DNA of 64,000 bases from Dictyostelium firmibasis (Eukaryota; Evosea; Eumycetozoa; Dictyosteliales; Dictyosteliaceae), in NCBI GenBank assembly GCA_036169595.1, contig CM069766.1, positions 567,001 through 631,000 of the forward strand, written 5' to 3'. A program made the position numbers and the translations under genes. Below the pieces are notes generated by a model that did no database searches, was not told the origin of the DNA, and worked only from the letters and a program-made list of their open reading frames with translations. Shown in pieces: positions 24,267-40,139 of this stretch. How positions within the stretch are numbered: the first letter of the stretch is position 1; each line of letters opens with the position of its first letter.

Positions 24267-28581
<4,315 letters not shown>

Positions 28582-29101: not shown

Positions 29102-35071
<5,970 letters not shown>

Positions 35072-38705: not shown

Positions 38706-39091
38706 TATCCATGTTTTTTTTTTTTTTTGTTGTTGTTTTTTTGGAAGTCGAGCTTTTTTCCGGTTGATTATGAGGTGTGTTATTTATGACCACGTTACTT
38801 CGTGGTATGACCTAAGGCTCGAACCAAGGCCTCGGGGACTGTGTGATTCAGCGCAGAACCACACAGGCTCGAACCAAGGCCTCGGAGACTGTGTGATTCA
38901 GCGCAGAACCACACAGGATCGAACCAAGGCCACGGAGACTGTGTGATTCAGCGCAGAACCACTACGTATAGCCTCTAATAATTAGGGTTTTAATTATGAC
39001 GTTACTTCGTGGTATGACCAAGACTCGAACCCAATGTTCTTGGCCACGGAGGCTTGTGATTCAGCGTGGAACCACTACGCTAAGCCCCCAG
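38696..39091 (-). repeat. tRNA-like repeat unit 1 (A-box/B-box motifs)
   Basis: Composition jumps to near 50% G+C. On the minus strand the module reads A-box-like (TTAGCGTAGTGG), then GAATCACA, then B-box-like (GGGTTCGAGTC), then a hairpin ACCACGAAGTAACGTGGT. A second sub-module has CGTAGTGGTTCTGCGCTG and GGTTCGAGCC. These look like RNA polymerase III internal promoters, but no cloverleaf closes, so this is a tRNA-like or SINE-like repeat and not a tRNA gene. A T-run/TTGTTGTTG leader and AAGTCGAGC begin the unit and recur in unit 2. Confidence 0.7.
38816..38965 (-). repeat. Three 50-bp direct repeats carrying B-box motifs
   Basis: Starts at 38816, 38866 and 38916. Each contains, on the minus strand, GAATCACACAGTC and GGTTCGA(G/T)CC. 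Only one copy exists in the neighbouring unit 2, so this is a local expansion. Confidence 0.9.
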
Positions 39092-39154
39092 TTTTTATTT
39101 TTTTTGTTATTAATATTTTCGTGGCCTTACTTTTTTTTTTTTTTTTTTTTTTTT

Positions 39155-39475
39155 TAATATTATTGGGATTAGAATTTCTAATCACCATGTTTTTTTTTTT
39201 TTTGTTGTTGTTTTTTTGGAAGTCGAGCTTTTTTTTTTTTTTCCGGTTGATTATGAGGTGTGTTATTTATGACCACGTTACTTCGTGGTATGACCTAAGG
39301 CTCGAACTAAGGCCACGGAGACTGTGTGATTCAGCGCAGAACCACTACGTATAGCCTCCAATAATGAGGGTTTAATTATGACCACGTTACTTCGTGGTAT
39401 GACCAAGACTCGATCCCAAGGTCTTGACCACGGAGGCTTGTGATTCAGCGTGGAACCACTACGCTAAGCCCCCCG
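39155..39475 (-). repeat. tRNA-like repeat unit 2
   Basis: A duplicate of unit 1: the same T-run and TTGTTGTTG leader, AAGTCGAGC, CGGTTGATTATGAGGTGTG, both tRNA-like sub-modules and the AAGCCCC end, with one copy of the 50-bp element. It differs from unit 1 at scattered bases, including one B-box (GGGATCGAGTC). Confidence 0.75.
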
Positions 39476-39528: not shown

Positions 39529-39611
39529 TCCGGCTTGCCAGATTCGAACTAGCAACCGATTGATCACCATTATTACTACAGTCAATCGCGCTACCATTGC
39601 GCCAAAGCCGG
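39529..39611 (-). tRNA. tRNA-Tyr (GUA) with an 11-nt intron
   Basis: A full cloverleaf can be drawn on the minus strand: acceptor CCGGCTT/AAGCCGG with discriminator A; D-arm GCGC/GCGC around AATGGTA; anticodon stem ATTGA/TCAAT with loop CTGTAG...A, anticodon GTA; an 11-nt intron TAATAATGGTG after position 37; variable loop of five; T-arm GCTAG/CTGGC with loop TTCGAAT. The C1-G72 pair and A73 are eukaryotic tRNA-Tyr identity elements, and introns at 37/38 are usual for this isoacceptor. 72 nt remain without the intron. The A- and B-boxes are intact. Confidence 0.95.
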
Positions 39612-39644
39612 ATTTTGATGATATTTTGTAATGAATGGTTAACT

Positions 39645-39691
39645 AAATAATTGATTATTACCGAGGAGAAACAGCTTAAACTGTAATATCC

Positions 39692-39727
<36 letters not shown>

Positions 39728-39807
39728 AATAATTGATTATTATCCCGAGGAGAAACAGCTTAAACTGTAATATCCAATTTTAAAAAAAAAAAAAAAAAAA
39801 ATAAAAA

Positions 39808-39840
<33 letters not shown>

Positions 39841-39851
39841 ATTGATTATTA
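39645..39851. repeat. Three 16-bp target-site duplications
   Basis: Identical AAATAATTGATTATTA at 39645-39660, 39727-39742 and 39836-39851, bracketing the two poly(A)-tailed fragments. Confidence 0.85.
39661..39835 (+). mobile_element. Two poly(A)-tailed fragments, likely 5'-truncated TRE5-class non-LTR retroelements
   Basis: Two copies of a 36-bp body (CCGAGGAGAAACAGCTTAAA, then CTGTAATATCCAATTT) begin at 39661 and 39745, each followed by a long A tail. The 16-bp sequence AAATAATTGATTATTA occurs before the first (39645-39660), between them (39727-39742) and after the second (39836-39851). This is what two successive target-primed insertions with target-site duplication leave. The first insertion point is 49 bp upstream of the 5' end of tRNA-Tyr; TRE5 elements of Dictyostelium are known to enter about 50 bp upstream of tRNA genes. 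The bodies are too short to confirm the family. No coding capacity remains. Confidence 0.7.
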
Positions 39852-40139
39852 TAAATTATTAAATTGGTTATTATAAATTATTGAATTTCTAAATTATTAA
39901 TTATTGGGTTGATATTTAATTAATTTATAGTTTTACCAATTTGTAATTTGTATTTTGATTCTTTGATTTTATTTTTATTTTATTTATTTTATTAATTATT
40001 TAGTTCACCATTCATTACAAATTGAGATCATACAACAAATTTTAACTTTAAAGATTAAAAAAAAAAAAAAAAAATTAACTTTAAAGATTGAGAAACCTTT
40101 GGTTAGTTGGTATATTGGAGCGAATTTTGATGATTTATA
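39852..40139. other. Intergenic
   Basis: Low-complexity TTAAATTATTA-type sequence, then GAGATCATACAAC and a short direct repeat (TTAACTTTAAAGATT at 40040 and 40075). No gene seen. Confidence 0.5.

Follow-up and report, generated by a model that had tools for sequence, protein, structure and literature searches.

Probable repeated insertion of truncated TRE5-type tails at one tRNA-Tyr target in Dictyostelium firmibasis, and a recurrent end point at a predicted 3′ hairpin

Dictyostelium non-LTR retrotransposons of the TRE5 type (TRE5-A, TRE5-B and TRE5-C) are described, in the part of PMC5911963 that concerns them, as residing about 44–54 bp upstream of tRNA genes in opposite orientation, with an oligo(A) tail, an ORF1 and an ORF2 of APE-RT-ZF layout. 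As to repeated insertion, sections of PMC5391098 report that TRE5-A insertions carry target duplications, and that TREs hitting an already targeted tRNA gene in D. discoideum typically form TRE-TRE tandems. A comparable process is outlined in a passage of PMC2718515 for Drosophila R1 tandems, where each new copy goes into the duplicated target of its predecessor, so that a single target copy separates the units. The locus presented here, three target copies around two tails, follows the same logic of re-use as far as that passage describes it; the R1 target is, however, 28S rDNA, whereas the site in D. firmibasis is set by the neighbouring tRNA gene and its units are tails only. In position, orientation, A tail and layout, these copies and a related full-length element of the same genome (locus L039) resemble TRE5 as portrayed in those sections. 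They differ from TRE5-A, -B and -C in belonging to another species, and the copies of our locus consist of 36/37-nt tails with a recurrent end point, a feature that those sections do not describe. The stem "truncat" is absent from the main texts of PMC5391098, PMC4559204 and PMC5006619, and among the titles and opening lines of abstracts found by searches of the open literature none plainly reports TRE5 copies reduced to their tails, tails in chains or a SINE of Dictyostelium. TRE5 tails as such are already known; we regard those described here as a new variant on account of their recurrent end point and of the tails that form chains.

The window, meaning the whole stretch of 64,000 nucleotides that was analysed, equals C2:567001-631000 of the D. 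firmibasis genome (12 contigs, 31.46 Mb), and the genome-wide searches cover those contigs. The layout of the locus is given in Table 1.

Table 1. Layout of the tRNA gene, target copies and tail insertions in the window
Feature	Position	Strand	Basis
tRNA-Tyr (GUA) gene, 11-nt intron, insertion landmark	39529..39611	-	Rfam, ARAGORN, isotype by eye
Spacer from tRNA 5′ end to first insertion, 49 nt; ends as target copy 1	39612..39660	.	sequence
Target copy 1, TAAATAATTGATTATTA, last 17 nt of spacer	39644..39660	.	sequence
Tail insertion 1: TRE5-type 3′ terminus, 36 nt, begins CCGAGG	39661..39696	+	
Poly(A) tail 1, 29 A	39697..39725	+	
Target copy 2, TAAATAATTGATTATTAT, common to both insertions	39726..39743	.	
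Tail insertion 2: TRE5-type 3′ terminus, 37 nt, begins CCCGAGG	39744..39780	+	
A-rich tail 2, 58 nt, three single T's inside	39781..39838	+	
Target copy 3, TAATTGATTATTAT	39839..39852	.	

The 36-bp body that an earlier note had recognised twice, each time followed by a long A tail, was verified in coordinates and tails; the two bodies (39661-39696, 39745-39780) do not differ at any of their 36 nt. When the first 31 bases of the body were searched with up to three mismatches, the window held these two places only and 100 shuffles gave none, which rules out a chance repeat as their origin. The sequence TAATTGATTATTA occurs exactly three times in the window (39648-39660, 39730-39742 and 39839-39851); the 16-mer of the same note is also present three times, except that in its third copy the leading AAA could be part of the tail. 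With the tRNA gene on the minus strand, the bodies stand upstream of it and point the opposite way, and the length of the spacer bears out the claimed distance of 49 bp. Thus distance (within the range of about 44–54 bp), opposite orientation, poly(A) and target duplication are all as in TRE5. The two units are unlike at their 5′ junctions (TTATTA/CCGAGG for unit 1, TTATTAT/CCCGAGG for unit 2), and they also differ in the length and composition of the tail and in the extent of the target duplication. The spacer upstream of the tRNA gene is repeated nearby in inverted form (39616-39655 against 39991-40030), 85% complementary, 335 bp off and without insertions.

The landmark gene reaches an Rfam score of 57.8 bits, while its type was left open by ARAGORN in one mode and given as Asn(gtt) with an intron in the other. 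Read by eye, it appears to be a tRNA-Tyr(GUA) gene with an intron of 11 nt after position 37, in agreement with the earlier reading. Four such genes (L001, L011, L015 and L028) vary from one another solely in the loop concerned, and the intronless Asn gene of L050 looks quite unlike them. At L028, a partial second tRNA-Tyr copy was found upstream of the tails, beside the intact gene. Elsewhere in the window, two paralogous frames (25650-28274 and 30921-34826) hold long runs of EGF-like cysteine repeats, as judged by eye, and are nearly identical in their C-terminal parts.

A pattern search of the genome with the body returned 62 places at up to three mismatches, 35 of them exact, and 0 with the reversed control. 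Genome-wide the body is mostly followed by an A tail and often target-duplicated, with C3:298994 (in L073) as one of the 62 places without A tail, and many copies run on upstream into an A-rich 3′ UTR and then into a coding region. A full-length element in L039 (C1:7508200-7513900) has exactly this body as its 3′ terminus; it holds an ORF1 frame of 427 aa and an ORF2 frame of 1163 aa, both measured from stop to stop. The Pfam search gave no hit for ORF1, and in ORF2 it detected the RVT_1 domain (E 5.7e-32); the latter also carries the motifs GDFN, SDHN, FADD and CCHC, its RT being identified by Pfam and its APE and ZF assigned by motif alone. Unnamed hypothetical proteins of D. citrinum and D. 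discoideum match ORF2 with about 50% identity. Some 48 bp separate the start of the element from a tRNA-Lys gene, upstream of which it lies in opposite orientation, and a 14-bp target duplication flanks it. The body thus shares its 3′ end with an autonomous element composed of ORF1 and an APE-RT-ZF ORF2, and the assignment of its family to the TRE5-type non-LTR elements is supported through this D. firmibasis element rather than through the named TRE5-A, -B or -C sequences. The comparison with 3′ ends proposed in the earlier note was carried out with elements of the D. firmibasis genome, where the body recurs, mostly A-tailed, as a TRE5-type 3′ terminus.

In regard to the extent of the copies, these were anchored at the 3′ end and extended leftwards from 84 anchors, the underlying search listing 100 of 111 places. 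The body's family (family a) contributes 77 copies whose tail measures at least 7; 41 of them stop no more than 60 nt from it, 20 at 61-170 and 16 beyond. Out of 42 rows ending at position 60 or below, four were dropped, two as chance matches (174464 and 172629) and two as decayed (L071 and L050), which left 38 short copies for the counts of duplications and tRNA genes; for the count of end points, two rows of L021 with shared mutations were also removed, leaving 36. Fourteen of these 36 end at positions 36-38 and the remainder is spread over 15-57, with a smaller cluster of seven ends at 24-28. Position 37 is the most frequent end (9 of the 38 short copies), followed by position 36 (5 of 38). 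The addition of seven short diverged copies fetched later changes the count to 15 of 43; neither 14 of 36 nor 15 of 43 was reached by the densest 3-nt window in any of 200,000 uniform simulations. Nine places were added late. Their ends, as read by eye, lie at about 36 in L126, at 49 in L130 and at about 16-19 in L123, L124, L125, L128 and L129, while L127 and L131 are longer and decayed. Besides the ends at 36-38, a second cluster is seen near 16-28; its part at 16-19 coincides with the limit of the search pattern, which may have raised the count there. Copies of only about 15-28 nt exist in the genome, so the window tails, taken in the earlier note to be among the shortest one could find, are not the shortest. 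In L124 and L128, GTCTAAC stands directly before AAACTGT, and a further related family may exist.

A script detected target duplications in 17 of the 38 short copies, compared with 5 of 353 pairings of flanks from different copies. Of the 38, 24 have a tRNA gene on their 5′ side that runs the opposite way, and in two (L061 and L033) gene and copy point the same way; for the other 12, no tRNA gene is present within the fetched stretch. The distance is 47-49 bp in L055, L017 and L070; of the remaining short copies for which a tRNA gene is in reach, most sit further away, at 64 to more than 1000 bp. In the chains of L037, L019 and L034, a SINE is found between or beside the tail and the tRNA gene. 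At L005, in the match near C5:2908158, the tail is followed by a tailless, 5′-only piece of the same element end (CGGGTTCTATCC...TTAAAC).

The most frequent end point among the short copies examined coincides with the boundary of a predicted hairpin. For the 3′ UTR of family a, the predicted fold consists of CGGG-UUCUAUC-CCCG and, after it, a further stem (MFE -11.7, z -2.6, with 4 of 200 shuffles folding equally well), and the hairpin also appears when 361 nt of context are folded. The CCCG 3′ arm begins at position 37, so ends at 36-38 fall at its loop side. Folds of variants range from z -3.05 in L038 to z -1.2 in L072, which is weakly better than shuffles. When 20 distinct 3′ ends were compared, pairing held in 90.4% of cells, and 3 of 500 shuffles reached the covariation score. 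Two-sided changes, however, concern one pair in four rows and another pair in one row, and as many two-sided pairs occur in 151 of 500 shuffles and as many pair types in 378 of 500. The signal comes mainly from the one pair in four rows, where it probably represents one event, and the covariation is weak. In a comparison of 82 sequences, gaps of family a in positions 33-48 were found in L064, L068, L021, L057, L050, L042, L046 and L020, some of them being alignment effects beyond true 5′ ends, against a single gap in positions 1-32 (L064).

The sister family b (L006, L017, L020, L025, L073 and L074-L102), with the 3′ end AAACTGTGATATTCAATTT, was found at 34 places at up to one mismatch, mostly as longer copies. 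Short copies are two among these 34 (L082, and L101 of about 19 nt), neither beginning at the hairpin arm. Both stems can pair in this family too (CGAG...CUCG), with a fold no better than shuffles (z -0.3). One of the 34 places, L074, has an internal deletion at the arm boundary, a skip from there to a point further upstream.

Re-used targets are found outside the window as well. One target sequence flanks both a SINE and a tail in L037, it is present three times in L031, and four copies of it surround a longer copy, a SINE and a double tail in L034. Such shared target duplications suggest that the site next to the tRNA gene stays attractive after every insertion, so that a stack of elements would form. 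Furthermore, two tails are enclosed by a single outer duplication with no target copy between them in L028, L041, L034 and L066. L019 is a less certain case, as its first unit comprises only about 8 nt plus A's, and L021 holds a triple chain whose outer duplication is unclear. Chains without intervening target fit either template jumping or insertion into a tail. The reverse transcriptase of R2 performs end-to-end template jumping, and by analogy this would explain chained tails that lack a target copy in between.

The SINE-like repeat mentioned above is tRNA-derived, 166 bp long (L037:1304-1469) and present at about 200-230 places in the genome (230 matches to its 3′ piece, 200 to its middle piece). 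It has an A box TAGCATAGTGG and a B box GGTTCAAGTCT, recognised by eye, as well as poly(A), and the inspected copies show target duplications, some of which are shared with TRE5-type tails. Among the 20 best-matching loci, which are not a random sample, the nearest SINE copy starts 43-57 bp upstream of a tRNA gene in 16, and SINE and tRNA gene have opposite orientation in all 19 in which a tRNA gene was found. It looks as if the SINE is carried by the TRE5 machinery. Four middle pieces (GGTCATACCACGAAGTAACG) of a related tRNA-like repeat are present in the window itself, on the minus strand downstream of the tRNA-Tyr gene (38787-39404).

The element 3′ end, the A tails, the duplications, the 49-bp distance, the orientation and the repeated target use can be read directly from the sequence. 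As for their origin, we consider it very likely that they represent two separate, extremely 5′-truncated TRE5-type insertions about 49 bp from the tRNA gene, the later one re-using the target duplication of the earlier. TRE5-type machinery would have been guided to about 49 bp upstream of the gene, the same target would have been nicked twice and reverse transcription primed on the poly(A) tail; the cDNA would end after 36-37 nt, inside the C-run of the 3′ arm of the predicted hairpin, and cDNA and target ends would be joined without microhomology. The distal unit (50 bp from the tRNA gene) was likelier the first, with the proximal unit then entering the tRNA-proximal target copy (49 bp), an order for which the more numerous T interruptions of the distal tail, that is, tail decay, are the sole basis. 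Identical order of parts could also be produced by one event and one exchange, if a single tail insertion was followed by tandem duplication of the 84-bp unit through slippage or unequal exchange between target copies, and Tandem Repeats Finder does report a period of 84 with 2 copies and 94% matches. Such a duplication is nevertheless improbable, considering CC against CCC, one extra target T, the unequal duplications and tails, and the fact that the unit ends, 37 and 36, are the two leading end points of the short copies (9/38 and 5/38). The earlier note had named target-primed insertions re-using one target and, alternatively, one insertion with subsequent target-site recombination; the latter is less likely, as junctions and tails differ, and two successive insertions fit best because junctions, tails and duplication extents all differ. 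The recurrent 5′ end in 14 of the 36 short copies could also mean that the 36 bp form a micro-element in their own right, a minimal SINE transcribed independently. We regard this as highly improbable, since the 3′ end of the long element repeats the window unit exactly, end points at 15-34 and 41-57 are found too, and no promoter is recognisable by eye within 36 bp.

The end point itself could arise in more than one way. Microhomology was rejected as its cause: in 17 loci selected for a visible duplication and read by eye, 15 junctions are without a shared base, and only L041 (two) and L052 (one) have any. The enzyme may most often lose its template at the hairpin, possibly when the latter re-forms and displaces the cDNA end, and the gathering of gaps at the hairpin together with the skip in L074 suggests such a loss. 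Against a role of the hairpin, it is small, the fold of family b does not surpass shuffles (z -0.3), neither short copy of that family begins at the arm, a second cluster of ends lies near 16-28, and a reverse transcriptase would be expected to halt at the hairpin base (around position 33) rather than where the 3′ arm meets the loop. Alternatively, TRE5 RNA may be cleaved in the hairpin loop, with the polyadenylated 3′ fragment serving as template from which the enzyme runs off or jumps between fragments. The concentration of ends within 3 nt would suit this scenario, as would the tail chains with a single outer duplication (L028, L041, L034, L066 and less surely L019) and the scarcity of microhomology at junctions (15 of 17 loci without, by eye), considering that, in the relevant passage of PMC2718515, truncated R2 junctions often show microhomology and run-off adds non-templated bases. 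The chains could, however, equally result from insertion into an existing poly(A) tail, which would make the duplication invisible, and the L074 skip on the same RNA and the small gaps at the hairpin suit drop-off on uncut RNA. Cleavage of the RNA thus seems possible rather than probable, a judgement not to be added to those on the other alternatives since it bears on the end point and not on the reading as two insertions, and we favour drop-off as the source of the end point.

A broader and rather doubtful proposal is that a polyadenylated 3′ fragment of TRE5 RNA, 36-38 nt long and ending at the hairpin, would be a regular substrate of the machinery, copied singly or in chains, and that the same machinery would carry the tRNA-derived SINE to tRNA genes, whereby tails, SINEs and full elements would accumulate at a single re-used target. 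Why non-LTR elements halt copying where they do is an old question. Tail copies of which 14 of 36 have their ends in one stretch of three bases, where a small predicted RNA hairpin has its boundary, would offer a natural read-out of either drop-off or RNA cutting.
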